DNA of 64,000 nucleotides. It comes from Paraglaciecola sp. L3A3. Its GTDB lineage: Bacteria > Pseudomonadota > Gammaproteobacteria > Enterobacterales > Alteromonadaceae. The notes under the pieces were generated by a model. It was not told where the DNA came from. It was given only the letters and a program-made list of their open reading frames with translations, and ran no database searches. Positions 31,379-53,625 of this stretch are shown here, in pieces. The position numbers and the translations under genes were made by a program. The stretch is taken from contig NZ_CP047023.1 in NCBI RefSeq assembly GCF_009796765.1, positions 4,199,501 to 4,263,500 on the forward strand, read 5' to 3'. Each line of letters starts with the position of its first letter. Within the stretch, counting starts at the first letter, position 1.

Positions 31379-32488
31379 TTAAGGCTGATCTAACTCTTTA
31401 GTAAAAAAGTGTTTTCCTAATAAAGACTGGGTCAAACCAACGAGACTCTTAGTGGTTAAATGAAATATTAATATGTGTAACGGCATTTTTTGGAAATGTC
31501 CACGCAATAAAACCAGAAACTCAGCCAAAGCAAAAAATTTGGGGCGACAGCTAGGGTGACTTGGCAGTAATACCTTTTTGTAAACAAAATCTAAATAACC
31601 AATATTCCACGGAATATTTTTGGCGACTTGCTCAGTAATTTCTTCAGGTATACGTGTTTTTAGTATTTGTTGCACATAACGACAAGCCAGAAATAGCTCT
31701 AATTCAAAGCCCGTTTCTTTACTCAATGAAAGTAACTCTTGCCAATAATCACCCTCACTGTGATAAGTCATTAGAGTATGAATATCAATAATATCTCGAT
31801 AGCCTTTTTTAACATCTTCATTAAAAAACAAATGAATTAAGCTATGTAAGGTCATAGCGGCAAAAGATAAAATTTGAAAGCCATCTTCTGTAGTCACACT
31901 ATGAGTAGCAAACTGGTTTGCATCTAATTGCCGACCTGAAATAATCGGCACAATATTATGATGGATATCTATAATAGTGCCACGTTTACCATGACGTAAT
32001 GGCGGTATTTCATGAGCCCATTTACGATAATACTTTTCGTCATGTTCGGTTAACTCTTCTGATAACCAACCAAATAGACACAGCTTTTTTTCAATCTCAT
32101 CGATTGAAGATTTATCCGACAATATATCTATATCATTATAGACTCGAGTATCCCCTACTCTAGTCTTTGATAAGGTATACCCAGCCCCTTTTAGAAAAAT
32201 TAAATATTGCTGCTTGTCACCAATCTCACGTTGTAACTCAGCGGCTTCAAACATCACCTGCTTTTTATGGTTTGCAACCAGCACATCTGCATTTAAAAAG
32301 TGTCGTTGAGCTTGTTGGGGAATTTTTTGAAAAATACCCGCTTGTTTAAAAACGGCCGAATAGCAGGCTAATAACTGTTGATGACGTAAAATTAAAACCA
32401 ATTGTTGCCACTGTTTAGGCGTAAAGGCCAATGCAACTTCGGGCTTGATATACACTGAACAAACATCGCGAGCTGAAAGGTTAAGCAT
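31379..32488 (-). CDS. Nucleotidyltransferase family protein (NTP_transf_5) of the HPr-rel-A type set
   Basis: A protein of about 369 residues. The minimal nucleotidyltransferase core shows in LIFLKGAGYTLSK followed by RVYNDIDIL, where D-x-D supplies the metal ligands, and IIDIHHNI later. This is the PF14907 type, found with HprK-like kinases in lasso-peptide and PEP-CTERM settings. Its start overlaps the end of the kinase gene; ATG 32488 is chosen over a TTG two codons earlier. It is the last gene of a leftward four-gene operon. It may transfer a nucleotide or sugar-phosphate to the operon's protein substrate; this is inference. Confidence 0.78.
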   Translation of the reverse strand: MLNLSARDVCSVYIKPEVALAFTPKQWQQLVLILRHQQLLACYSAVFKQAGIFQKIPQQAQRHFLNADVLVANHKKQVMFEAAELQREIGDKQQYLIFLKGAGYTLSKTRVGDTRVYNDIDILSDKSSIDEIEKKLCLFGWLSEELTEHDEKYYRKWAHEIPPLRHGKRGTIIDIHHNIVPIISGRQLDANQFATHSVTTEDGFQILSFAAMTLHSLIHLFFNEDVKKGYRDIIDIHTLMTYHSEGDYWQELLSLSKETGFELELFLACRYVQQILKTRIPEEITEQVAKNIPWNIGYLDFVYKKVLLPSHPSCRPKFFALAEFLVLLRGHFQKMPLHILIFHLTTKSLVGLTQSLLGKHFFTKELDQP

Positions 32489-33368
32489 TTCCAATAATTT
32501 CCTGCTCTAAAAATTCAGCTACTTGCTGTAAATCGTTGTGGAAAATTTCAAAGGTTTGAACACCTTCAATCACATGAGTCAATGTATTAAAAGCCTGTCC
32601 TCCCAACACACTATAATTTATTGCGTTATCAACCAGCTGCATAAAAGCTTGAGTTTTATCTAATTGATATATTTGTAAATCTTGATCGACTCGATAATTT
32701 GGAAATACCACGCCAACCAATTCTGCAGTTTCTGTTCGATTTTGCCAACTTAACTCAGGCGGAGACAAATGAATTACATCCCCTTTATGGGTATCTCTAG
32801 CTATGTCTGAAAACTTCCCTTCAGGGAATAATTTTTTTGCGATATCAATCGATTGATTTTTTAAACAAATAGGTCGAACAAATGGCACCACTGTTTTGCT
32901 ATTAGGAATAATTAAGGCCATTTCATCTGATAACAAACGCCAGCCGTTATGGGCTAAATAGGCGGTTAGTGTACTTTTTCCTGAACCTGGGGGGGCAGGA
33001 AACAAAATAGCTTTATTGCCCTTAGCTAACACAGCAGAATGGATGATAACATGCTGTACTTCATTACCAGCCACAGTCCAATTCATCCCCCATTCTAAAA
33101 ATGCATAAGCTTTTTGAAAGCTCAGAGGTTTGAAAGGTTCTAGCTGATCGCAAAAAAATCGAGCCTGAGGACGAATAAATGAACGTAAGCCCGAAGACTT
33201 TTGCACCGACAATTCATAATCAGCCACTTCATCTACTGTATCTACTGTATCTACTGTTTTTTTAAAACGTTCGCCATAAATAGTAGCTAAATTTTGAGCT
33301 ACCTGAGGGAGGTCAGTATTAACAGAAAATGAAAAAGGATGTAAATCTATAAAATAACTAGCAGGCAT
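32481..33368 (-). CDS. HprK-related kinase A (HPr-rel-A type)
   Basis: A 295-residue protein whose C-terminal half resembles the HPr kinase/phosphorylase core. The Walker A loop is PPGSGKST at 126-133 and an acidic pair follows in LLSDEM at 148-149. The first about 100 residues are not HprK-like. An in-frame triplicated T-V-D unit (38-46) comes from three exact 9-base repeats (33231-33257). The start overlaps the PqqD-like gene by one base. In lasso-peptide clusters related kinases phosphorylate the peptide C-terminus, so this enzyme may phosphorylate a protein delivered by the PqqD-like partner. Confidence 0.83.
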   Translation of the reverse strand: MPASYFIDLHPFSFSVNTDLPQVAQNLATIYGERFKKTVDTVDTVDEVADYELSVQKSSGLRSFIRPQARFFCDQLEPFKPLSFQKAYAFLEWGMNWTVAGNEVQHVIIHSAVLAKGNKAILFPAPPGSGKSTLTAYLAHNGWRLLSDEMALIIPNSKTVVPFVRPICLKNQSIDIAKKLFPEGKFSDIARDTHKGDVIHLSPPELSWQNRTETAELVGVVFPNYRVDQDLQIYQLDKTQAFMQLVDNAINYSVLGGQAFNTLTHVIEGVQTFEIFHNDLQQVAEFLEQEIIGNA

Positions 33369-33604
33369 CAGTGATTTTTATTATCTAAAGGAACTAAGAT
33401 GTTTTTCTGCATTAGAGAACTCATCGCAAGACTTTTCACATCTGATTTATCCAATTTCATTTCACCTGTCAAAGCCTTAACAATTTCAGTTTCTGACATT
33501 AAAATACTCAACGTTTCCCCTGAATATAAGTCTAAAAAGACACAACTTGAATGATCAGAAAAGGAGTGATAAATCACTCCTTTCGATAAAAAAATACCAA
33601 GCAT
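33368..33604 (-). CDS. PqqD-like small protein (RRE fold candidate) of the HPr-rel-A type set
   Basis: A 78-residue protein with the size and pattern of PqqD-family peptide chaperones: an N-terminal beta hairpin part (SSCVFLDLYSGETLSIL) followed by helices (SETEIVKALTG, LDKSDVKSLAMSSLMQ). Such domains bind leader peptides of modified peptides. It lies 11 bp after the Tat-signal protein gene and overlaps the kinase gene by one base, so it could present that protein or another substrate to the kinase. The identification rests on size, pattern and neighbours. Confidence 0.72.
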   Translation of the reverse strand: MLGIFLSKGVIYHSFSDHSSCVFLDLYSGETLSILMSETEIVKALTGEMKLDKSDVKSLAMSSLMQKNILVPLDNKNH

Positions 33605-33615
33605 TATACTAAGGT

Positions 33616-34197
33616 TTAATATGCATGATTATTATTAATCAAATCATCAAGTTCTGACCCAAAATTAGAATTAGTTAAGGATAAGCTCCACAACTGTTGG
33701 GCAAACGCATCTAAATCAGGATATGCTGCGTTTGTTGCCTCAGAATAATAAGCATTATAAACGACGGGATAATTTATGCCCAGCGTTCCATGATATTTAG
33801 CATTCAAGTACATTGCCACCATTTGAAAATGAACGTTATCTTGGCTTCCGGTTAGCACTTCATAAAATGTGTCAGTAATACTTGAAGCAGTAAATACTGA
33901 ATTGAAAGCTACATTATCTGCTCGATGGGATCCACGGCGGCCATTATTCCTTGTAGGATGTAGTCTTTGTTTCCAAAAACCGTGAGATAATAATGCAATA
34001 GGAGCAACACTGGTACTGGGTATATTATTTGAACCATGCCCAGATGCCACAACCGAACCCGCAATTGTTGCCCATGCAGAACGACCCGGTATTGATGCGA
34101 TAACGGCACCTGCTGACGCCCGTTTTAAAAACGTACGACGTTGTTTTGTGTTGTTAGAAACCGAAGATTCTATTCCTTTTGGATTATCAAGACTCAT
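33616..34197 (-). CDS. Tat-exported protein with a GYWKNHP-like motif, putative substrate of the HPr-rel-A type set
   Basis: A 193-residue protein with a twin-arginine signal (QRRTFLK at 19-25, then a hydrophobic stretch ending in GRSAWA about residue 43). The mature part carries SHGFWKQRLHP near 71-81, similar to the GYWKNHP motif of many secreted PEP-CTERM-associated proteins, followed by FNSVF and MVAMYLNAKYHG segments that also fit that domain. It is the first gene of the leftward operon, ahead of the PqqD-like, kinase and nucleotidyltransferase genes. A Tat signal implies folding or modification in the cytoplasm before export. Its biochemical function is unknown. Confidence 0.75.
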   Translation of the reverse strand: MSLDNPKGIESSVSNNTKQRRTFLKRASAGAVIASIPGRSAWATIAGSVVASGHGSNNIPSTSVAPIALLSHGFWKQRLHPTRNNGRRGSHRADNVAFNSVFTASSITDTFYEVLTGSQDNVHFQMVAMYLNAKYHGTLGINYPVVYNAYYSEATNAAYPDLDAFAQQLWSLSLTNSNFGSELDDLINNNHAY

Positions 34198-34242: not shown

Positions 34243-34258
34243 AGCAAGTATTAGACCA
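34243..34258 (-). promoter_or_regulatory. Possible sigma-54 promoter of the HPr-rel-A type operon
   Basis: Read leftward, TGGTCTAATACTTGCT has the invariant GG-N10-GC spacing and a perfect TTGCT -12 element, with a weaker -24 half. It would start transcription about 35 bp before the Tat-signal protein gene. Confidence 0.45.
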
Positions 34259-34343
34259 CTTCATAACCAATTGAAAAACAAGGATAAATAAATAGTTAAA
34301 AACTAGGTATGTAAAAATTAATGACACTATATACTTTATACCG

Positions 34344-35114
34344 TCATTTTACCTTTAGGTTCTTACCTTTAGCAAGTTCAATTAAGTATTTAACTGGGAT
34401 TGCATAACTGATAGCTGATGGTTTTTCTAACACCGATTCTTTACTTTCTTTAACAAATACTTTATTCAAAATGCCCAAAACTTCGCCACTATGAGCATCA
34501 TAGAGTGGGCTGCCACTGTTGCCCGGATAAGCTGTAATATCCAGTTGATAAATCATAAACTTTTTATCCAGCCTCTTTAACATGTTGATTGACAACTGGC
34601 TAGAATGCGCTGTGGGTATCACATCGGGTGTAGTGGCTGCCACTATTCCTCTGTGAGTTGCTGGATATAAACCTAGTACCGCGCCAATAGGAAATCCTGT
34701 TAACAATACATCAGTACCATCATCTACATAATGTGAGTCTGCTAATTTTAACGGAGTTAATGGGCTGGGTAACTTTAAAATTGCTAAATCATGTTCACGA
34801 TCTTTGGCAATGATTTCTACTCTGGCTATTTTAGGTTTTCTTCCTGTTCCTGAAAAAACGATATGATATTGTACTTTCTGCGGATCTAATGGCTTATCGA
34901 TTACATGGTAATTTGTCGCCACTAGAGAACCATCACCAAAAACAAAACCTGTGCCATGTAATTGATGTGTTTGCACTCCTAATGCATCATATAGTCCCAC
35001 ACCTACAACTGAGGGTTTCACTTGGGCAACGACTTTGGTTATCGAATGAGCATTAACAGTCGATACAAACATTAACGCAATAAGCCCTGTAACTATAATT
35101 TTTTTTAATATCAT
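34344..35114 (-). CDS. Trypsin-like periplasmic serine protease (S1C, no PDZ)
   Basis: A 256-residue secreted protease with a signal peptide ending near VNA (residue 22). The catalytic triad is H70 (NYHV), D109 (EHDLAIL) and S200 (GNSGSPL). Unlike DegP/DegS it has no PDZ domain. Such small trypsin-like proteases accompany many exosortase loci. It is transcribed leftward, separated from the HPr-rel-A type operon by about 145 bp. It may process secreted proteins of the EPS matrix; the substrate is unknown. Confidence 0.88.
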   Translation of the reverse strand: MILKKIIVTGLIALMFVSTVNAHSITKVVAQVKPSVVGVGLYDALGVQTHQLHGTGFVFGDGSLVATNYHVIDKPLDPQKVQYHIVFSGTGRKPKIARVEIIAKDREHDLAILKLPSPLTPLKLADSHYVDDGTDVLLTGFPIGAVLGLYPATHRGIVAATTPDVIPTAHSSQLSINMLKRLDKKFMIYQLDITAYPGNSGSPLYDAHSGEVLGILNKVFVKESKESVLEKPSAISYAIPVKYLIELAKGKNLKVK

Positions 35115-35551
35115 TGATTTTTAAATACTGTTCCAACGGTGGATATGAGTATAATCACATACACAATGTATATCGGCCATTTAATTATAAGTTTCTCATC
35201 AATGATTTAAACTAACAAATACCTCAGTAGATATTAACAATATCAACTAAATAAAAAGGGTTAGACAACTTCACGCCCCAAGATGTCAAAAAATTTTACA
35301 CATACAAAAATAGGCCTGACTGGCAGAGAAATAACTGAATATTTTTTCCCGCAGATATTTGGGTTGGGAAACCCATCATCAACACAAGTTGATAATCTCC
35401 CAAACACTTATATTCACATTTCAACAATTGGCAGAACAAACACATTAATTGGCTAAAACAATAGTTGAGGTTAACATCAAAAACATTGTGGATTAATATA
35501 AAGATTGATACACCTAATGTATAGATATTACAGTAAAAAGGGATTTAGGTA
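35115..35551. other. 437-bp divergent intergenic region with nested hairpins
   Basis: No gene is seen. The region separates the leftward protease gene from the rightward YdcF-like gene and must carry both promoters. Nested symmetry occurs at 35358-35404: TTTGGG pairs with CCCAAA on the outside, ATCAAC with GTTGAT (around ACAA) inside, and GGGTT with AACCC overlaps the left side. It could be a regulator site or a structured leader. Confidence 0.5.
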
Positions 35552-37231: not shown

Positions 37232-38059
37232 GTGAAAAAACTTAGAAAATATGCAAATAAACCATTCATTGGTCCTATTATAAAAAAAATTATTAATTTT
37301 GAAGTCAGTCGGCAAGCTAACAAAATTTCAGCTCACTTTTCTGAATATTTAAGTCCAGTCCTAGCATTAGAACCATCACTACAAACCGAAGCTTATAAAA
37401 TTCGTCATGAAGTCTATTGCCGAGAATTAAAATTTGAGGAAATGAAGCCAAGTGGTTTAGAAATCGATGATTTTGATAGTCACTCAACCCATTGCTTAAT
37501 TCAACATATGCCTACAGGTGAATACGCGGGTACAGTTCGAATTGTAAAGTCAGCAAATGAAAGCCAATTATTGCCTATCGAAAAGTACTGTATGAGTTCG
37601 ATAGACGAAGATAATGTTCATCCAAATGATTTTCCAAGAGAAGAAATTTGTGAAATATCTCGACTAGCAGTCCCAGCCCAATTCAGAAAACGTCAAACAG
37701 ATAAGTTTAAAGGCTCAGCCACAGGTGTAATTAACCAAACAGTCTATTCTGAAAAAGAACTCAGGTGTTTTCCATTTATTGCGGTAGGTCTTTATCTTTC
37801 AGTCGCATCAATTTGTTTACGCCAAGGGATAAAGCATTGCTTTGTTATGATGGAACCAAGACTTGCACGGAGTTTACGCTTTGTTGGTATTCCTTTTGAA
37901 CAAGTAGGGCCCGTTGTGGAGTACCATGGAAAAAGAGCACCATATTATATAAGTAGACATCTGTTGATGAATGGCCTAAGTCCAGGTTTTAAAAGTATGC
38001 TTAAAAACATAGATAAAAAAATTGAAGCACAGTACAAATCAACACAGCCAAAGGTTTAA
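37232..38059 (+). CDS. PEP-CTERM/exosortase system-associated acyltransferase
   Basis: A 275-residue GNAT/autoinducer-synthase-like protein starting at GTG 37232 with AAGGGA upstream; the nearby ATG runs into a stop after one codon. The core YKIRHEVYCRELKFE and EICEISRLAVPAQFRKR segments match the exosortase-associated acyltransferase subfamily. A long insert before PFIAVGLYLSVA and a hydrophobic MMEPRLARSLRFVG segment complete the fold. It likely N- or O-acylates an EPS- or lipid-linked substrate. Its presence is good evidence that the genome has an exosortase system. Confidence 0.88.
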   Translation: MKKLRKYANKPFIGPIIKKIINFEVSRQANKISAHFSEYLSPVLALEPSLQTEAYKIRHEVYCRELKFEEMKPSGLEIDDFDSHSTHCLIQHMPTGEYAGTVRIVKSANESQLLPIEKYCMSSIDEDNVHPNDFPREEICEISRLAVPAQFRKRQTDKFKGSATGVINQTVYSEKELRCFPFIAVGLYLSVASICLRQGIKHCFVMMEPRLARSLRFVGIPFEQVGPVVEYHGKRAPYYISRHLLMNGLSPGFKSMLKNIDKKIEAQYKSTQPKV

Positions 38060-38076
38060 AGATCTGTCAGAAAAAT

Positions 38077-38091
38077 TTACATTCCATGTAA
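38077..38091. promoter_or_regulatory. Palindrome upstream of the sigma-54 promoter, possible activator site
   Basis: TTACATTCCATGTAA is a perfect 6-bp dyad with a 3-base centre, 54 bp upstream of the -24 element. Sigma-54 promoters need an upstream enhancer, and exosortase loci often carry the activator PrsR, which is a candidate binder. Confidence 0.5.
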
Positions 38092-38144
38092 CTCATTTTC
38101 GGGAAAAAAAATCAACCACTTGTTTTTAAACAACTTTTTAAAAC

Positions 38145-38160
38145 TGGCACAAAGAATGCT
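38145..38160 (+). promoter_or_regulatory. Sigma-54 (RpoN) promoter of the PEP-CTERM gene
   Basis: TGGCACAAAGAATGCT matches TGGCAC-N5-TTGCT with one change, and the GG and GC are exactly ten bases apart. The predicted start of transcription is near 38171, about 37 bp before the ATG at 38208. Confidence 0.82.
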
Positions 38161-38207
38161 TTAGGTATTATGATTCAGAAATTCTCCATAACAAGGAAAT
38201 GCAAAAT

Positions 38208-39107
38208 ATGAAAAATTTAATAAGTAAAACAAAATTACTATCTGCTAGTTTAGTGCTTGCGATGGGTGTTGCCGGCAGCGCGACTGCAGCAACAGTTACT
38301 TTTGGTGGGCAAGCAGCGACTGATGGCTCTGCAAAAACAAGTAACAAAATTGACGCAAGCAACATAATAACTGATGTAACTCAAGGTTATTTCGTTGAGA
38401 CTTTTGATATTGCTACTGAAGTTCCAGCTTTTTCTGGCATTCCTGGCACTCAAAATACGGCTTACAATGTTACTACACCGGTAAATGCTACCGATGCAGC
38501 GGATAATGGTGCTAACCCAAGTGCAGGTTGTGCAGTTAATTCGCCACTAGCCCTTACTCAAAGCGCTCCAGGCGTAGTAAATGTAAGAAAAGGCTCTGTT
38601 ACTAGTGTTGCAGCAGCTCCTGCTAATGATACAACATGTTACGCTTATACCACTCCACAAACAGCTGGCGCACAACCTAGTTATGTAGATATCGATTATA
38701 GTAGCTTTTTAACATCAATCGGTGGTTTGGTTCCAAACTTAGCTGGTTCTAGTATTAACTATCTTGGTTTTTACTGGGGTTCTGCAGATATATATAATTC
38801 ATTTGAATTTTACTCAGATGATACCTTGTTAAAAACAATAACTGGTCAAGAATTATTCGATGAACTTGGTGGAACTTCAGGTGACCAAGTAGATGATAGA
38901 ACAAATGTTTACGTTAACATCGACTTTACTATTGCTGAATCATTCAACAAATTTCGCGTACTGACCTCTGGTGTTGCCGGTGAATTTGATAATATCGTAA
39001 TTGGATTAGATAAACGTCCAGACATTCAAGTTCCAGCTCCTACTGGTTTAGCTCTATTAGGTTTAGGCTTATTAGGTCTAGGTTTTGGAAGAAGATTAAA
39101 AAAATAA
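38208..39107 (+). CDS. VPAP-type PEP-CTERM secreted protein
   Basis: A 299-residue protein starting at ATG 38208, about ten bases after AAGGA; an ATG at 38199 is too close to that site. The signal peptide ends near SATAA (about residue 26). The C-terminal 25 residues are a sorting signal with VPAP in place of PEP, a Leu/Gly helix and RRLKK. The mature protein is rich in Thr, Ala and Asn, with YLGFYWGSADIYNSFEFYSDD, a segment common in PEP-CTERM proteins, here given by its WGSAD landmark. It should be sorted by the exosortase into the EPS matrix. It is the only gene here with a textbook sigma-54 promoter, and it ends at its own terminator. Confidence 0.9.
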   Translation: MKNLISKTKLLSASLVLAMGVAGSATAATVTFGGQAATDGSAKTSNKIDASNIITDVTQGYFVETFDIATEVPAFSGIPGTQNTAYNVTTPVNATDAADNGANPSAGCAVNSPLALTQSAPGVVNVRKGSVTSVAAAPANDTTCYAYTTPQTAGAQPSYVDIDYSSFLTSIGGLVPNLAGSSINYLGFYWGSADIYNSFEFYSDDTLLKTITGQELFDELGGTSGDQVDDRTNVYVNIDFTIAESFNKFRVLTSGVAGEFDNIVIGLDKRPDIQVPAPTGLALLGLGLLGLGFGRRLKK

Positions 39108-40930: not shown

Positions 40931-41072
40931 GTAATGGGAATTTGTAAAAATAAGTATGATTTTTTATAAACAACTGTAATAGAATGAGTTTACATAAGTC
41001 GAAGAACGAAAAATTTAAGATATGTTTTCTCATAAGTAATTGGGTAATATAGTTTTTACTAATGGAGTTAGA

Positions 41073-43808
41073 ATGCGTCAGAAGTTAATCAGTTTATTAT
41101 TGGCTTTATCAGTCATACCGCTTATAGGATGTAATAAAAAAACAGAGCAGGAGTATATTGAATCCGCTAGAGTTAGTTACATTAATCATGATATTAATTC
41201 TGCAATTTTAGCTCTTAAAAATGCGATTATTATTGAGCCATCAAACTTCAATACTAGAGTGAAAATTGGTCATTTTTACTTCGAAAAAAGTTTATACGAA
41301 GAAGCTGAAAAAGAGTTGAGAAAAGCCCTAGAACTCGGTGCGCCTGCAGACTTAGTCATCCCCCCACTAAGCAGAACAATATTTTACCAAAATGACTTTT
41401 TCCGAGTGATTAATTTAACAAAAGACTTTAAAACAGACGATAAAGCGATATTGAGCTCCGTTAATTTATTCAATTATTTATCTAAATTTAAGACAGAAGA
41501 AAATGTTGAACAGATCGAAATAGGATATTTAGAAAATGATGATCAACTTATAGCAAGAGCATACCAATCACTGGCCATTGGAAACTTAAAGCAAAGTGAA
41601 GAAATAATAAATACTTTTCAAAACCAAGATAAAAATAAATTAGAAAAACTCTTATTATCGAGTTTAGTCAACACCTTTCTAGACAATAAACCCGAGGCTA
41701 TAGAAGACTTAGAAAATGCAGTAGCAATTGCACCTAATTATTATGTGGCCAGATTTCAGTTAGCTGAAATCTTAATTAAAGCCGATAGGCAAAACGAAGC
41801 AAAATCACATGTAAATTTTCTGTATGACATAAATAGTAAAAGCGCCTATATAAACCTATTAAAAGCACAGATTGAATTTAAAAACGAAAAATTCGAAGAT
41901 TCATTTTCTTCAGTGGAAACCGCGATTCAAAATGGTATCGATAATACTGTGAGCAATTTATTAGCAGGAGTGACAGCTTACCGAACAAACAAATTAGAAA
42001 GTGCATATAGGTATTTAAGTAAAGTAGCACCAAGCCTTCCTAATAATCATTTAGGTAAAAGGTTATTAGCTGAGGTGCAATTAAGGCTAGGCTACACGGA
42101 TAACATTGAGACATTAATGTCAAACTTCTCAGGAGATTCAAAATATGAATCAGAGCTTTACTCGAAAGCTGGAATAAGGATGTTTCAACAAGGAAACCTA
42201 GAAAAAGCTAAAAGTTTTCTTAGTAAATCGAACTCAATTACACCTAATAACTCGGAAAATTTATTAAAAGAAGGGCTAGTGAGGCTATTGAATGATGATT
42301 TTGAAGGAATCAAAAATCTCGAGCATGCTATTAAGTCCAATGAAGAGTTAGACGAGGCTTGGATGCTATTAGCACAAGCTCATGTACAAGCCGGCGATAT
42401 CGATTTAGCCCTCGAAACAGCTCAAAAGTGGCAAAAAATCGATTCAGAAAATGGTACTGCCCTTGAGGCATATATCTATTTACAGATAAATAAAAATACT
42501 GAAGCCCGAAAATTACTTGAAAATAATTTAAAACAAAATTCGGAGCACCCCATATCTACTCGTTTTCTTATGCTTCTCAATGCGAGAGAAAACAGATTAC
42601 CCGAAGCTAGAGAGCTCGCAGAGCGATTAGTTTATATGGACTTGAGTAATCTCCAATCTATGATAACTCTCACCAATATTGTGGTAGATCAGAAACAAGT
42701 AGAGCAACTAGAGCCATTTTTTACAAAAATAATCACAGATAACGCTGATGACAACGATATAACTATGACGACGAAAGCCGCACTCGCCTTATTATATAAT
42801 TATCAAAAACAGCCGGAGAAAGCCATCTCACTGCTTTCAAATATTGTCGAACCTTCAAAAGAAATATTTGCCGCTTTAGGGAATACTTATTTTGCACAAA
42901 AACAATTTAATAAGGCGTTTGACACTTATTCACAATGGAAGGAAAGATATCCTTCAGACAAAAGAGCTTGGCTTTATGCTCTAGAAGCCCTAAATGAAAG
43001 TGGAGACTATAACAAAGCACTTATAATGGCGAATGAGGCAACTAATTTATTCCCTCACGAACAAGGCTTTGACATATTTATCGCGAGCTTTTTGCTAAAA
43101 ACAGGAAAAGTTCGAGAATCAAGAGAAAAACTTGATGAATTAAAGAAGCAAAATATTAACAACCCTTTACTCAAGCTCTTTGATGGAGAATTAGCTTTAT
43201 TGCAACAAGACTTTTCAACGGCCGCTTTATTATTAAAAGAACACTACAACTCTACGCCTTCTTTTGAGACAGCAAAGCTGTTAGCAGACTCCCTAGCTGG
43301 CTTAGGAAAGGCTGCAGAAGGTGCAAAGTACTTAGAACAAGAGTTAATAAAACTACCGGCTCGCTTTAAAGAAATACATTATGTCGCCGAGTTCTACAGC
43401 ACACATAGTATGTATGAAAAATCAGCAGAGCATTATGAATCAATTATTACTAGGTTTCCCGACCATTTAATTACATTAAATAATTACGCAGATGTATTAG
43501 TTAAATTAAGTAGGGTTGACGAAGCATACAAATATGCAGCGAAGGTAAATAAATTAGCTCCCGATTCTCCCTATTTTATGGATACATTAGGCTGGATAAT
43601 ATATAAACAGAAAAAACCAAGAGAGGCTCTGTATTATTTATCCAAAGCCTATGAAAAATTACCTGATCAGGCTGTCATACAACTCCATTATGCAGAAGTT
43701 CTAATTGCAGAAAAGCAATACTCAGAAGCAAAAGGGATTTTAAGAAGAGTAAAAGCTACAAATATATCTCAAGAACAAGAGTTGAAACGACTCAATAGTG
43801 CACTCTAG
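41073..43808 (+). CDS. prsT: XrtA/PEP-CTERM system TPR-repeat lipoprotein PrsT
   Basis: A 911-residue lipoprotein starting at ATG 41073 behind GGAG; the frame is open from 41040 without a ribosome site. The lipobox is LIGC near residue 20. TPR repeats fill almost the whole protein (for example SAILALKNAIIIEPSN, AKSFLSKSNSITPNN, KAFDTYSQWKERYPSD, KSAEHYESIITRFPDH, REALYYLSKAYEKLPD). Length and repeat order fit the PEP_TPR_lipo family (PrsT) found in exosortase-A loci, thought to be an outer-membrane periplasmic scaffold for EPS export. It begins the long rightward run of EPS genes. Confidence 0.9.
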   Translation: MRQKLISLLLALSVIPLIGCNKKTEQEYIESARVSYINHDINSAILALKNAIIIEPSNFNTRVKIGHFYFEKSLYEEAEKELRKALELGAPADLVIPPLSRTIFYQNDFFRVINLTKDFKTDDKAILSSVNLFNYLSKFKTEENVEQIEIGYLENDDQLIARAYQSLAIGNLKQSEEIINTFQNQDKNKLEKLLLSSLVNTFLDNKPEAIEDLENAVAIAPNYYVARFQLAEILIKADRQNEAKSHVNFLYDINSKSAYINLLKAQIEFKNEKFEDSFSSVETAIQNGIDNTVSNLLAGVTAYRTNKLESAYRYLSKVAPSLPNNHLGKRLLAEVQLRLGYTDNIETLMSNFSGDSKYESELYSKAGIRMFQQGNLEKAKSFLSKSNSITPNNSENLLKEGLVRLLNDDFEGIKNLEHAIKSNEELDEAWMLLAQAHVQAGDIDLALETAQKWQKIDSENGTALEAYIYLQINKNTEARKLLENNLKQNSEHPISTRFLMLLNARENRLPEARELAERLVYMDLSNLQSMITLTNIVVDQKQVEQLEPFFTKIITDNADDNDITMTTKAALALLYNYQKQPEKAISLLSNIVEPSKEIFAALGNTYFAQKQFNKAFDTYSQWKERYPSDKRAWLYALEALNESGDYNKALIMANEATNLFPHEQGFDIFIASFLLKTGKVRESREKLDELKKQNINNPLLKLFDGELALLQQDFSTAALLLKEHYNSTPSFETAKLLADSLAGLGKAAEGAKYLEQELIKLPARFKEIHYVAEFYSTHSMYEKSAEHYESIITRFPDHLITLNNYADVLVKLSRVDEAYKYAAKVNKLAPDSPYFMDTLGWIIYKQKKPREALYYLSKAYEKLPDQAVIQLHYAEVLIAEKQYSEAKGILRRVKATNISQEQELKRLNSAL

Positions 43809-44967: not shown

Positions 44968-47523
44968 GTGATTAGAATTCCAGTCCTATTGAAGAAACAA
45001 CAAACTTCACCTTTAGTTAAGTTTGGTCTACCATTACCTTGTGGTGTACTCAAATCACTTGATCAAATGTCAATTGAAGTAAATGGCAACAAGGTTGAGG
45101 CGAGTGCACAAATAACCTCAAACTGGCATGACAAAAGTATTAAGTCATGCTTAATAATTATTTATTTCTCCTGCCATCCCGTTGAAAAAATCGAGATAGT
45201 GATTGACCCTAGCTTTGCAGCTTCAATTACGCCAAAAGAAGATTCATTTGTATTAGATATTGATCAGCAGTTCATTAAGTTACAAACAGAAAACACTGTA
45301 TTTAGTTACAATCTTAATCAATCTAGTTTTGAATTAAATTACACAAACCACTTAGTGAAACAAGCTGGAACAATTAATTTAAAAGATGCACTAGGCTCAA
45401 AATTAATTCCTAACACTGTAGATTACCAAATAGTAAGAAAACAAAGTTTACTGAGCCAAGAAAATTCTGATCTTGAGATCATAGTAAAAGGTCAATTTTC
45501 CGATCAACAACCGCAGCCCCCTTGCCTGTTTACCTTAACATTCGCTTTTTATAAAAATGCTGAGCTACTGAATATTCAACTCATCATACATAATCCGAAA
45601 GCAGCCGAACACAATATGGGATTGTGGGACTTAGGTGACCCTAGTTCGTTTATGTTTAATAGCCTCAACTTAAGCCTAGATAATGCAGAGCCTCAAGCTT
45701 GGTGCTACTCCAGCGACTTAGTTGGCAAAGAACAGACCCTAGTAACTAAATCAATTTGTATTAGTCAATATGCAAGTGGCGGAGAAAATTGGCAAAGCCC
45801 AGTTCATGTAGACAAAACGGGCAAAGTACCATTGAAAAAGAATGGTTACGATATCATCCAACAAGAGAAGATTATTGCAACAGGAAGTAGAGCCACACCC
45901 AATCTAACTATCCCGAATAAATTACAGCTCACGCAAACCCAATTTTGGCAAAATTTTCCCTCTTCACTCCTCGCTAGTGACAAAAATATCACCTTTGAAT
46001 TTTTCCCAGCTGAAAAGCAGACATTGCACGAGTTACAAGGAGGAGAAAAGAAAACTCATGAAATTTGGCTATCGACAATAACGAACGATAATTTAGCTTG
46101 GGTACATACTTTTAAAAGTGTAAAAATACCTGACACTTGGTTAGCACAAACCAGCTTAGGCCAATTGATGTCATTTACACAGCTCCCCAGTGCTTGGCAA
46201 GAATTAATTAACAACGCCCTTGAAAGTGAACAAAACTTCTTTAAAAAACGAGAAGCTTTAGATGAGTTTGGCTGGCGTAATTTTGGTGATTTGTATGCAG
46301 ATCACGAAACAGCAGAACACTCTGGTGAAGATATTTTTGTTTCCCATTACAACAATCAATATGATCCTATCTTGGGTTTTCTCAAACAATTTTTAGTTTC
46401 TGGCGACCCTAGATGGTTTGAGTTGGCCGATGACTTAGCTAAACATGTAGTCGATATAGATATTTATCACACTGACCAAGATAAGCCTGAATACAATGGA
46501 GGGTTATTTTGGCACACAGATCATTATCTCCAAGCGTATACATCTTCCCATCGCTCTTATTCAGAACATCAGCCTAGTGACGCATATCAAGATCATGCTG
46601 GCGGTGGCGGCCCTGGAGGACAACATTGTTATACCACTGGTTTATGCTTACACCACATGCTGACAGCTAACGAGGCGTCTAAACAAGCGGTGCTAACCCT
46701 AACCAACTGGATTACTCATGTATATGAAGGTTCTGGTACTTGTTTAGAATTATTGCTCGCTTTCAAAAATAGGCATGTAGCAGGTTATAAAAATCATTTT
46801 ACTGGGCAATACCCTTTAGATAGAGGCACAGCAAACTATGTCATTGCGTTATTAGATAGTTTTGAATTAACTCAAAAGCACTATTATTTAGAACAAGCCG
46901 AACACATTTTCAAAAACTCTTTCCACCCGAACGAAGATATCAATCAACGTAACCTAGATGATGTTGAAAACACTTGGTTTTATACCGTATTACTGCAAGC
47001 TATTTGTAAATACTTAGCGATTAAAGAAAGTATGCAACAACTGGATGACAACTTTTATTATTGTCGAGACAGTTTACTCAATTTTGCTAGATGGATGCTT
47101 ATATATGAAAACCCATATTTAGAAAAGCCAGATATTCTCGAGTACCCTAATGATACTTGGACGGCCCAAGATTTACGCAAAGTACAAATTTTTGCAGCAG
47201 CTTATTATTATAGCCCGACTGTCAATCAAGTATTTTTAGATAAAGCCAACTATTTTGAAGAATATATACTCAATAGACTTAACTGTTCAGCTACCAAAAC
47301 GTATACTCGAATAATGATTTTGGTGTTACAAAACTACGGTTTTTTGAACTTATACAAAAATAGACCGGAAATATCGCCATATAAAGCACCTAAATTTAAT
47401 TGGCCTAAAGCCCCTTACCAAAACAAATCAATGTTAAGTGGCTTATTCATACAAATGGTAAAACGGTTAACTAAAATATCCATCAAGGGTGAAATAAATT
47501 GGTTGAAAAAACGACTTAATTAA
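44968..47523 (+). CDS. PcRGLX/YetA-like protein (PL26-type architecture) within the EPS locus
   Basis: An 851-residue protein starting at GTG 44968. The N-terminal part has the RIFT-barrel pattern of exo-rhamnogalacturonan lyase PcRGLX and B. subtilis YetA: VKFGLPLPCGVL near 20-31 and SNWHDKSIKSCLIIIYF near 52-68. A central beta region with FYKNAELLNIQLIIHNP and a C-terminal alpha/alpha toroid (about 400-800; WFELADDLAKHVVDIDIYH, HAGGGGPGGQH, RGTANYVIALLDS) complete the three-part layout, cited here by landmarks. No signal peptide is visible, so a cytoplasmic or non-classically exported role is open. It may trim or edit the EPS. It sits 16 bp after the CelD-like gene. Confidence 0.7.
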   Translation: MIRIPVLLKKQQTSPLVKFGLPLPCGVLKSLDQMSIEVNGNKVEASAQITSNWHDKSIKSCLIIIYFSCHPVEKIEIVIDPSFAASITPKEDSFVLDIDQQFIKLQTENTVFSYNLNQSSFELNYTNHLVKQAGTINLKDALGSKLIPNTVDYQIVRKQSLLSQENSDLEIIVKGQFSDQQPQPPCLFTLTFAFYKNAELLNIQLIIHNPKAAEHNMGLWDLGDPSSFMFNSLNLSLDNAEPQAWCYSSDLVGKEQTLVTKSICISQYASGGENWQSPVHVDKTGKVPLKKNGYDIIQQEKIIATGSRATPNLTIPNKLQLTQTQFWQNFPSSLLASDKNITFEFFPAEKQTLHELQGGEKKTHEIWLSTITNDNLAWVHTFKSVKIPDTWLAQTSLGQLMSFTQLPSAWQELINNALESEQNFFKKREALDEFGWRNFGDLYADHETAEHSGEDIFVSHYNNQYDPILGFLKQFLVSGDPRWFELADDLAKHVVDIDIYHTDQDKPEYNGGLFWHTDHYLQAYTSSHRSYSEHQPSDAYQDHAGGGGPGGQHCYTTGLCLHHMLTANEASKQAVLTLTNWITHVYEGSGTCLELLLAFKNRHVAGYKNHFTGQYPLDRGTANYVIALLDSFELTQKHYYLEQAEHIFKNSFHPNEDINQRNLDDVENTWFYTVLLQAICKYLAIKESMQQLDDNFYYCRDSLLNFARWMLIYENPYLEKPDILEYPNDTWTAQDLRKVQIFAAAYYYSPTVNQVFLDKANYFEEYILNRLNCSATKTYTRIMILVLQNYGFLNLYKNRPEISPYKAPKFNWPKAPYQNKSMLSGLFIQMVKRLTKISIKGEINWLKKRLN

Positions 47524-51720: not shown

Positions 51721-53625
51721 ATGTGCGGAATTGCCGGTTTTACTCACTTTTTAGGGAATATGGGAGATAAGCAAACCCTAAAAGCAATGGGCGATAGCAT
51801 TTATCATCGCGGCCCAGATGCTGGCGGAGAATATATTGATGACTGTGTAGGTTTAGCCCACCGTCGATTAGCTATCATTGATTTGTCCGAAGCAGGGGTT
51901 CAGCCCATGGCCTCCCATGACGGTCGATATATCATTGTATTTAATGGTGAAATATACAATTACCTAGCATTACGAGAAGAATTAAGTGCTGCTGGCTATC
52001 CATTTAAAACTCATACAGATACCGAAGTAATTTTGGCATTATATGCATCCAAGGGCGAAAAGATGCTTGCGCAGCTAAATGGCATGTTTACTTTTGCCCT
52101 ATGGGATACGGTAGATAAAAACCTGATGATTGCTCGGGATAGAATGGGTAAAAAGCCCCTTTATTATTTACAAACTGACAAGCAGTTTGCTTTCGCATCA
52201 GAAATAAAAGCGCTATTAACACTGCCCAATATTCCTAAAGATATTCGATTAGATGCAGTTCACGACTTTTTTGCCTATCAATACATTCCCGATCCTAAAA
52301 CCATATTCACGTATATGCATAAACTGCCTCCGGGACATTTTATGATGGTCTCTGCCGACGAAACTCGGATAGAACAATATTGGGATGTGAGCTTTGCCAA
52401 TATAAGCAATAAAGGCGAAAAAGAGCTAACAGAAGAGCTATACGCACTTGCCACCGAAAAAACCAAAGACCGTATGGTCAGTGACGTACCACTAGGGGCT
52501 TTTTTAAGTGGTGGTATTGATTCAAGTGGAGTAGTGGCCATGATGGCCCTTAATTCCGATACCCCAGTTAAAACCTGCTCCATTGGCTTTGACGACAAGA
52601 AATATAATGAAACCGAATTCGCCCAAGTGGTGGCAGATAAATATAAAACAGAACACTTTGAGTTTACCGTTCACCAAAATGTTAAAGATAACTTAGAACA
52701 TATAGTCTCATTTTTTGATGAACCATTTGCAGACCCTTCACTGGTGCCTACATATTTTGTTTCTGAACTTGCCCGCTCTGAAGTCACAGTAGCCATAGCA
52801 GGTGATGGTGGTGATGAAGTTTTTGCCGGTTATGAAAAATATACTACCGACGACATTGAAAACCGTTTACGTAGTAAGTTTCCAGCTATATTAAGAAAAA
52901 AGCTATTCCCGTCATTAGCTAACTTATTTGCTAAAAGCGAGCTAGCGGTATTTCGTAAAGCCAAATCCCTTTTTCATAGCCTGAGCCTCGACCCTGCCAT
53001 GGGCTTTTATGTCACTAACTCACAAATTGAAGACAGATTATGGAGCAAGTTAGCCAATCAAGAAACACTAGATAAATTAGGTAGTTACCATCCTTCAAGC
53101 ATTACAGTAGACACATACAACAAAGCGGATGGCACAGACCACTTGTCAAAAATATTATACACAGACATGAAAACCTACCTGCCCGGCGGTATATTAGTCA
53201 AGGTAGATAGAATGAGTATGGCCAACTCTCTAGAAGTCAGAGCACCTTTGTTAGACAAAGAAGTAGTAGAGTTCTCAGCCACCCTGCCCTCTTCATTAAA
53301 ATTTAATAACGGCGAGAAAAAGTACATTCTTAAAGAAGCCTTTAAACCCGTATTACCCCACGATATTTTATACCGTAAAAAAATGGGATTTTCTGTGCCC
53401 CTAGCCGCTTGGCTACGTGGTGAAATTAAAGAGCTGGCCGAAGAATACCTATTTACTAAGTCCAACGGCATTCAACAATTTTTTAATATGGAAGTAGTGG
53501 AAAACCTTTGGCAACAACATCAAGAGTCAAAAGCTGACCACTCAACTGTATTATGGAGCATGTTAATGTTCCAAATGTGGTGGTTTAGATATATGACATC
53601 TAACGAGATCCCGAATGGACAATAG
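51721..53625 (+). CDS. asnB: XrtA/PEP-CTERM system amidotransferase (AsnB-like)
   Basis: A 634-residue class II glutamine amidotransferase. Cys2 is the N-terminal nucleophile (MCGIAGF). The glutaminase domain ends near 200 (FNGEIYNY, ARDRMGKKPLYY). The synthetase half begins with the ATP-binding loop FLSGGIDSSGV near 264, and RMSMANSLEVRAPLLD and YRKKMGFSVPL follow. Length and order match the exosortase-A-associated amidotransferase, thought to amidate a sugar or peptide component of the EPS. Its end overlaps the next gene by 11 bases. Confidence 0.92.
   Translation: MCGIAGFTHFLGNMGDKQTLKAMGDSIYHRGPDAGGEYIDDCVGLAHRRLAIIDLSEAGVQPMASHDGRYIIVFNGEIYNYLALREELSAAGYPFKTHTDTEVILALYASKGEKMLAQLNGMFTFALWDTVDKNLMIARDRMGKKPLYYLQTDKQFAFASEIKALLTLPNIPKDIRLDAVHDFFAYQYIPDPKTIFTYMHKLPPGHFMMVSADETRIEQYWDVSFANISNKGEKELTEELYALATEKTKDRMVSDVPLGAFLSGGIDSSGVVAMMALNSDTPVKTCSIGFDDKKYNETEFAQVVADKYKTEHFEFTVHQNVKDNLEHIVSFFDEPFADPSLVPTYFVSELARSEVTVAIAGDGGDEVFAGYEKYTTDDIENRLRSKFPAILRKKLFPSLANLFAKSELAVFRKAKSLFHSLSLDPAMGFYVTNSQIEDRLWSKLANQETLDKLGSYHPSSITVDTYNKADGTDHLSKILYTDMKTYLPGGILVKVDRMSMANSLEVRAPLLDKEVVEFSATLPSSLKFNNGEKKYILKEAFKPVLPHDILYRKKMGFSVPLAAWLRGEIKELAEEYLFTKSNGIQQFFNMEVVENLWQQHQESKADHSTVLWSMLMFQMWWFRYMTSNEIPNGQ

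Follow-up and report, generated by a model that had tools for sequence, protein, structure and literature searches.

The stretch of DNA analysed here, referred to as the window, comprises 64,000 nucleotides of the genome of Paraglaciecola sp. L3A3 (contig NZ_CP047023.1, positions 4,199,501 to 4,263,500), which is a single 5.31-Mb contig. Four open reading frames occupy positions 31379-34197 on its minus strand. In the order of transcription they encode a 193-aa protein with a signal for the twin-arginine translocation (Tat) pathway, the proposed substrate (33616..34197); a 78-aa PqqD-like protein assigned by position and family chain, the proposed leader-binding chaperone (33368..33604); an HprK-related kinase A (32481..33368; TIGR04352, 297 bits, cut-off 200); and a PF14907 nucleotidyltransferase called from a TTG start (31379..32494; 108.9 bits, cut-off 31.2). 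A gap of 11 bases separates the first two genes, the PqqD-like and kinase genes have one base in common, and the kinase and nucleotidyltransferase genes overlap by 14 bases. A first-pass annotation, made by a model from the sequence alone, had described overlapping or nearly touching genes read in one direction, and our data agree with this layout as well as with its naming of the two enzymes. We propose that this cassette probably serves to modify a protein in connection with its secretion, as part of the XrtA/PEP-CTERM exopolysaccharide programme.

The four genes form a real, conserved cassette with a gene order far beyond chance. Counting the genome of the window itself, 54 of 147 related genomes scored above the TIGR04352 cut-off, and so did 61 of 398 genomes sampled across Pseudomonadota, from which 53 phylum loci were taken. 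The relatives' loci, those of the 53 other over-cut-off genomes and of G020, which scored just below the cut-off, amount to 54, or 55 with the window; a second collection of 80 named loci partially overlaps with them. A Tat-family frame lies upstream of the kinase gene in 54 of the 55 loci; among the 54 relatives' loci, the Tat frames of L049 and L086 are broken or odd, that of L049 being a broken frame. The exception is L087 (G020), located at a contig end, where the kinase and nucleotidyltransferase matches share one frame. In the named loci the Tat gene is adjacent to the kinase gene on its upstream side in 74 of 80 cases, and in 71 an iterated profile detected a PqqD-like gene on that side as well. 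The nucleotidyltransferase match was obtained in all 55 relatives' loci including the window and in 79 of the 80 named loci. Chance adjacency of the four genes is ruled out by the position of the Tat frame in both sets. Absence of the Tat protein from most related gene sets, which the first-pass annotation had named as grounds for giving up its reading, was thus not observed. Of the 53 phylum loci, 23 gave a Tat gene in the profile search and 40 with a less strict twin-arginine pattern; some of these 40 may be false frames in G+C-rich DNA.

Presence of the Tat family follows that of the kinase. With a profile derived from 20 Tat proteins, all 54 kinase-positive relatives gave matches at E <=0.001, as did 1 of the 93 kinase-negative ones. 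Since these 20 proteins were taken from kinase-positive genomes, matches there are to some extent expected; the absence from the kinase-negative genomes does not follow from the choice of profile. The sole kinase-negative match (G116, E 5.0e-4) lies inside a 498-aa frame. The Tat-family gene is present in a single copy in the genome of strain L3A3. Locus L036 contains two Tat-family genes on opposite strands and two kinases near each other on the same contig, a possible duplicated cassette.

Both enzymes look active, as judged from their conserved residues. In 130 of 130 length-filtered kinase sequences H110, the Walker A motif GKST, D148 and E149 are invariant, and so are Lys170, Thr193, Lys195 and Asn251. 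The His, the Walker A Lys and the first Asp align with those of the HprK structures 1jb1 and 2qmh, and the fourth position of the His-Lys-Asp-Asp motif of HprK is a Glu (E149) in all 130 sequences. In 117 length-filtered nucleotidyltransferases a D-x-D pair is formed by D121 (115 sequences) and D123 (116 sequences), and D176, H178, H217, H221 and D237 are conserved throughout. Two further genes of the same genome reached weak TIGR04352 scores of 28 and 24 bits, which we take as general P-loop similarity.

The 78-aa protein of the window likely is a diverged PqqD-like member, considering its position and its relatives. Among the 47 members of an alignment of this gene slot, 33 match TIGR04353 (PqqD_rel_X) at E up to 0.1, a model that NCBI names "HPr-rel-A system PqqD family peptide chaperone". 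A lasso PqqD model is matched by 3 of the 47.

The Tat protein carries its twin arginine at R20-R21, behind a leader of residues 1-19, and a signal peptide to approximately A43. The GYWKNHP-like motif claimed in the first-pass annotation is present in the degenerate form HGFWKQRLHP, and the twin-arginine signal supports its assumption that export by Tat is the likely fate of the protein. Beyond weak Tat-signal matches, the window protein was assigned to no Pfam or NCBIfam family, and scans of 20 of the 54 Tat proteins against both libraries gave just weak Tat-signal and scattered matches. Mean identity is 75% in residues 1-57, which include the Tat signal, and 28% in residues 58-193, with the front more conserved in 79 of 79 homologues. 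In 76 aligned relatives only R20, R21, S48 and S52 are invariant, which makes S48 and S52 the sole invariant residues of the mature part; besides these, only S56, G53, F102 and A133 of this part reach a conservation of at least 90%. The codons of S48-V-V-A-S52-G-H-G-S56 (34030..34056, minus strand) specify the S-x3-S-x3-S motif that we propose as phosphorylation site. At this position 45 of 53 proteins show the pattern, whereas elsewhere in the proteins it was seen in 45 of 1040 background windows. The SGxMSGN motif may bear some resemblance to the region around Ser46 of HPr. In a more diverse set of 145 proteins, two serines (125/140 and 124/137) and a cysteine (124/128) are the three best conserved columns of the mature part; the third serine (110/136) ranks ninth, after Asn, Phe, a second Cys, Trp and Gly, and the window protein is devoid of those conserved cysteines.

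A conserved leader, a variable core and a PqqD-type partner, that is one of the RiPP (ribosomally synthesized and post-translationally modified peptide) recognition element (RRE) type, were found together, giving the cassette a RiPP-like appearance in which the leader would be bound by the partner. The Tat protein ends in ...DDLINNNHAY and does not match TIGR02595, hence it does not qualify as a protein with a PEP-CTERM tail. A Tat lipoprotein was considered and rejected, since the Cys near the cleavage site, inspected by eye, comes without a consistent lipobox and is absent in the window protein. In the Paraglaciecola-type loci L054, L049 and L170 and in the window the leader is nearly identical (M[SN]LDNP.GIESSVS) and the sequence after it differs, so that leader and cargo look as if they were recombining.

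In front of the operon lies the PrsR/sigma-54 control site that has been published for PEP-CTERM genes, at which binding of PrsR is predicted. Motif 1 (TGTC-N8-TTACA), the predicted PrsR binding site, is an exact match of 17 nt ending in TTTACA (34310..34326, minus strand), and motif 2, a sigma-54 -24/-12 element, agrees in 9 of 11 scored positions (34243..34258, minus strand). In this composite site (34326-34243) the spacer is 51 bases long, and 45 bases lie between motif 2 and the start codon. As reported in PMC1569441, motif 1 (17 nt, ending in TTTACA), a spacer of approximately 63 (32-92) bases and the sigma-54 motif 2 precede 99 of 167 proteobacterial PEP-CTERM genes and a few other genes, and PrsR was proposed there as the activator at these sites (Haft 2006). 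Dependence on RpoN has been reported for one PEP-CTERM gene in Aquincola (PMC9850573). In our data TGTC-N8-TTAC was found upstream of a sigma-54 site in 61 of 84 Tat promoters prior to the comparison with PMC1569441. The full composite site is present before Tat genes in 43 of 52 and 48 of 73 upstream regions, and the background was 2 of 134 for kinase genes and 0 of 1280 for shuffles. Applied to the whole genome, a strict pattern yielded six sites and the reversed pattern none. Five of the six precede frames with PEP-CTERM-like tails, judged by eye except for the one in the window, which was scanned with the library; the sixth is that of this operon. Two more exact copies of motif 1 in the window, at 35284-35300 (plus strand), upstream of ElyC-like, patatin and acyltransferase genes, and at 46119-46135 (minus strand), have no scored sigma-54 element in range.

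There is strong support for a link of the cassette to the exopolysaccharide programme, and the connection that the first-pass annotation drew to PEP-CTERM and exopolysaccharide genes turned out to be stronger than was visible to it. Besides the control site, XrtA was found over its cut-off in 53 of 54 kinase-positive versus 14 of 93 kinase-negative relatives, and in 25 of 61 versus 10 of 337 genomes of the phylum sample. Within the stretches fetched around each locus, to which all neighbour counts refer, PrsK and PrsR occur together in 17 of the 55 relatives' loci, and a relative of the exosortase-associated acyltransferase occurs in 31. In L132, a locus from a genome without XrtA over the cut-off, the cassette lies between XrtA-system glycosyltransferase genes and the amidotransferase gene.

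Several genes of this programme are located on the plus strand of the window. These are a PEP-CTERM/exosortase system-associated acyltransferase (37232..38059; TIGR03694, 252 bits), a PEP-CTERM (exosortase-dependent) surface protein (38199..39107; NF050191, 48 bits with a cut-off of 29; TIGR02595, 16.1 with a cut-off of 16) preceded by a second PrsR/sigma-54 composite site (38065..38160, plus strand), the tetratricopeptide repeat (TPR) protein PrsT of the XrtA/PEP-CTERM system (41040..43808; 474.5 bits, cut-off 312.2), and an asparagine-synthase-like relative of the XrtA/PEP-CTERM amidotransferase (51721..53625; TIGR03108, 710.8 bits, cut-off 816.9). The latter, which is akin to lasso cyclases and belongs to the same exopolysaccharide locus, scored 310.6 bits with the lasso cyclase model NF033535, below its cut-off of 525, and TIGR03108 fits it better. 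Next to the cassette an HtrA-like trypsin-family protease with a signal peptide and serine-protease motifs is encoded (34344..35114, minus strand; PF13365, 87.6 bits), and the control site of the cassette sits between this gene and the Tat gene. Relatives of the protease occur in 35 of the 55 loci of the relatives' set and in 4 of the 53 from the phylum; in L119, L120 and L146 of the phylum set it lies 1.1-1.2 kb downstream of the kinase. The first-pass statement that a protease or cyclase partner is missing is valid for the four genes and has to be qualified for their surroundings, considering the frequent HtrA-like neighbour and the amidotransferase relative, which is present in the window and near the cassette in 21 of 53 phylum loci. 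A lasso B2 cysteine protease was not found among the four genes, the protease neighbour and the scanned exopolysaccharide genes, a scan that covered part of the window's genes. A sulfotransferase-domain protein is encoded in 12 of 53 phylum loci and in none of the 55 relatives' loci. L132 contains, between kinase and nucleotidyltransferase, a TPR-sulfotransferase fusion (L132:4771-6468, minus strand). Outside the window, at approximately 3,902,300-3,903,050 of the same genome, a separate lasso-like locus (L261:3337-4054, minus strand) comprises a second PqqD-family gene by a B2-type protease (NF033537, 53.7 bits) and an ATP-binding cassette (ABC) transporter.

In the mechanism that we propose, PrsR and sigma-54 would switch on the operon together with the PEP-CTERM genes, as suggested by the site. 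The Tat precursor would be made with its conserved leader and be held by the PqqD-like protein for the enzymes. The HprK-related kinase would then phosphorylate serines of the S-x3-S-x3-S motif in the cytoplasm, and the PF14907 enzyme may extend the phosphoserine, most likely by a sugar as does PsmN in pseudomycoidin, or by a nucleotide. The folded, modified protein would be exported by Tat to function in the envelope or matrix, and it may be trimmed there by the HtrA-like protease encoded next to the cassette. The confidence in these steps differs. That the Tat protein is the substrate appears quite likely to us, because of the Tat-kinase pairing, the location of its gene directly upstream of the kinase (74/80), and the combination of conserved leader and variable cargo. 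Its phosphorylation on serine we still regard as probable from the conserved residues, whereas attachment of a further phosphate-linked group, for which pseudomycoidin provides the analogy, is a tentative suggestion with slightly less than an even chance. Phosphorylation or nucleotidylation, as put forward in the first-pass annotation, is something that we infer from sequence. It is a speculative idea, and rather unlikely to be correct, that the protein bears a phosphoserine-linked glycan and forms a covalent or adhesive link between envelope and XrtA exopolysaccharide. Equally speculative is the corollary that RiPP-type enzymes would make such a linkage ahead of export, on a protein whose hypervariable cargo differs from strain to strain.

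A number of observations weigh against this interpretation. XrtA was not found over the cut-off in 36 of the 61 kinase-positive phylum genomes, many of which are fragmented or incomplete assemblies. The composite site also precedes 90 of 1197 other open reading frames of the same loci, which may in part be PEP-CTERM genes, and it was found in only 4 of 22 cases in the phylum set. Of 37 Tat candidates from the phylum loci, 1 has the S-x3-S-x3-S pattern and 29 (class II, L117-L169, e.g. L132, L139 and L159) have C[WFY]xS[FLY] near the C-terminus; the serine site may not be universal, because most phylum Tat candidates lack the motif. In G055 (locus L086) the Tat match (E 4.5e-4) is no stronger than that of the kinase-negative G116. 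The counts come from related genomes, which are not independent of each other, and the two sets of loci have some members in common. The kinase is only weakly similar to solved HprK (E 0.022), no better than to other P-loop proteins. The designation PqqD-like in the first-pass annotation is made likely by position and relatives but not by the window's own copy, which gave no NCBIfam match at E up to 10, in a scan where HMMER filters discard most weak matches, and no Pfam match at E up to 1; a profile of the slot detected no PqqD among the solved structures of the PDB. Finally, gene content, pairing, motif conservation and the control site were observed, and from these we infer catalysis, the function of the leader and the role outside the cell.

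The alternative that survives best, to which we nevertheless give only a minor chance, is that the substrate of kinase and nucleotidyltransferase is a lipid or exopolysaccharide intermediate, the Tat protein being an unmodified, co-expressed periplasmic partner. The location of the cassette in or near exopolysaccharide genes is compatible with this, the conserved serines could serve binding, and the PF14907 protein of the window has no sequence match in the PDB that would guide its function. A PqqD-like protein near the enzymes, described as a strong indicator of a RiPP cluster (PMC7470986), points to a peptide substrate instead. The pairing of Tat gene and kinase, the directly upstream position and the conserved leader in front of a variable cargo indicate the Tat protein as substrate. 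A second possibility, which seems improbable to us, is that phosphorylation and nucleotidyl transfer build up a prosthetic group or cofactor attached to the serine, with the Tat protein being an enzyme exported together with its cofactor. The Tat pathway serves proteins that receive cofactors in the cytoplasm, and both tailoring enzymes show several enzyme-like invariant residues; however, the mature domain is variable (28% versus 75% identity in the front) and, apart from the serines, poor in conserved polar residues, in which it differs from an enzyme. Just as improbable is a regulatory HprK/P-like switch that times export or exopolysaccharide synthesis by (de)phosphorylating the Tat or the PqqD-like protein, which the HprK-like motifs and the control site common with PEP-CTERM genes would allow, although there is no HPr gene among the four, and the nucleotidyltransferase in 79 of 80 named loci as well as the sulfotransferase-domain proteins near phylum cassettes fit tailoring better.

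With modification of the Tat protein as the preferred reading, a named family pair becomes a system open to experiment, for which we can propose a substrate, point out candidate sites and suggest a likely switch. Should this reading be true, enzymes known for tailoring small peptides would act on entire exported proteins as well, the PEP-CTERM regulon would have exported products of a second kind, and a simple protein would be available for testing the chemistry of PF14907 enzymes. The kinase family occurs widely among Pseudomonadota (61/398), therefore its product may matter for biofilms and sludge flocs. Named loci with the kinase include those of Zoogloea, Massilia, Duganella, Thiobacillus and Methylomonas; a term search of two papers on floc formation returned neither HPr nor PqqD nor nucleotidyltransferase.

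Among the known systems, the cassette most likely belongs to the "HPr-rel-A system", under which NCBIfam already names the kinase together with a PqqD partner. TIGR04352 and TIGR04353 are the only models in the library output that bear HprK-related or HPr-rel-A names; the kinase exceeds the cut-off of the former and the syntenic PqqD slot mostly matches the latter, for which the window's own PqqD-like protein is too diverged. The view of the first-pass annotation that the activity is undescribed holds insofar as no description of the HPr-rel-A system was found in the open-licence papers searched, and has to be modified in view of these existing names. It had also pointed to the tailoring genes of lasso peptides, and the types of kinase, nucleotidyltransferase and PqqD-like protein are indeed shared. 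The systems of paeninodin (PadeK), ThcoK/SyanK and pseudomycoidin (PsmK/PsmN) have in common with the cassette an HprK-like kinase, a nucleotidyltransferase, a B1-type (PqqD-like) protein and sometimes a sulfotransferase, genes for which have been noted in such lasso clusters (PMC8498205). In pseudomycoidin, a serine is phosphorylated by PsmK, and its phosphate then receives one or two hexoses from PsmN, which is annotated as nucleotidyltransferase (PMC9266682, PMC8498205); one review (PMC9266682 or PMC8498205) states that a host glycosyltransferase could not be excluded. The catalytic motif of lasso kinases is given as His-Lys-Asp-Asp (PMC9266682). The phospho-acceptor of phosphorylated lasso peptides is a conserved serine at the C-terminus of the precursors, to which C[WFY]xS[FLY] of the class II Tat proteins is similar, whereas the class I serine motif of the window lies at the mature N-terminus. 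In contrast to lasso systems, the proposed substrate here is a full Tat-exported protein rather than a small peptide, the genes scanned do not include a B2 protease, and the only cyclase-like protein is the XrtA amidotransferase relative; a lasso peptide cluster proper was rejected, given that no B2 protease was found among the genes scanned beside the cassette and no cyclase exceeds the curated cut-off. With the HprK enzymes the kinase shares the aligned His, Walker A Lys and Asp, but overall similarity is weak, the second Asp is replaced by Glu and HPr is not encoded in the cassette. The XrtA/PEP-CTERM system with PrsK, PrsR and PrsT (PMC1569441) has the same arrangement of the control site, the published motif letters compared being TTTACA and GG/GC only, and shares loci and, among the relatives, mostly the same genomes with the cassette; its proteins differ from the Tat protein, which has a Tat signal and no PEP-CTERM tail. 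Considering the existing NCBIfam names and the enzyme types known from lasso peptides, we regard the cassette as a variant of known parts, to which the present analysis adds a proposed Tat substrate, the serine motif, the PF14907 partner and predicted control by PrsR and sigma-54.

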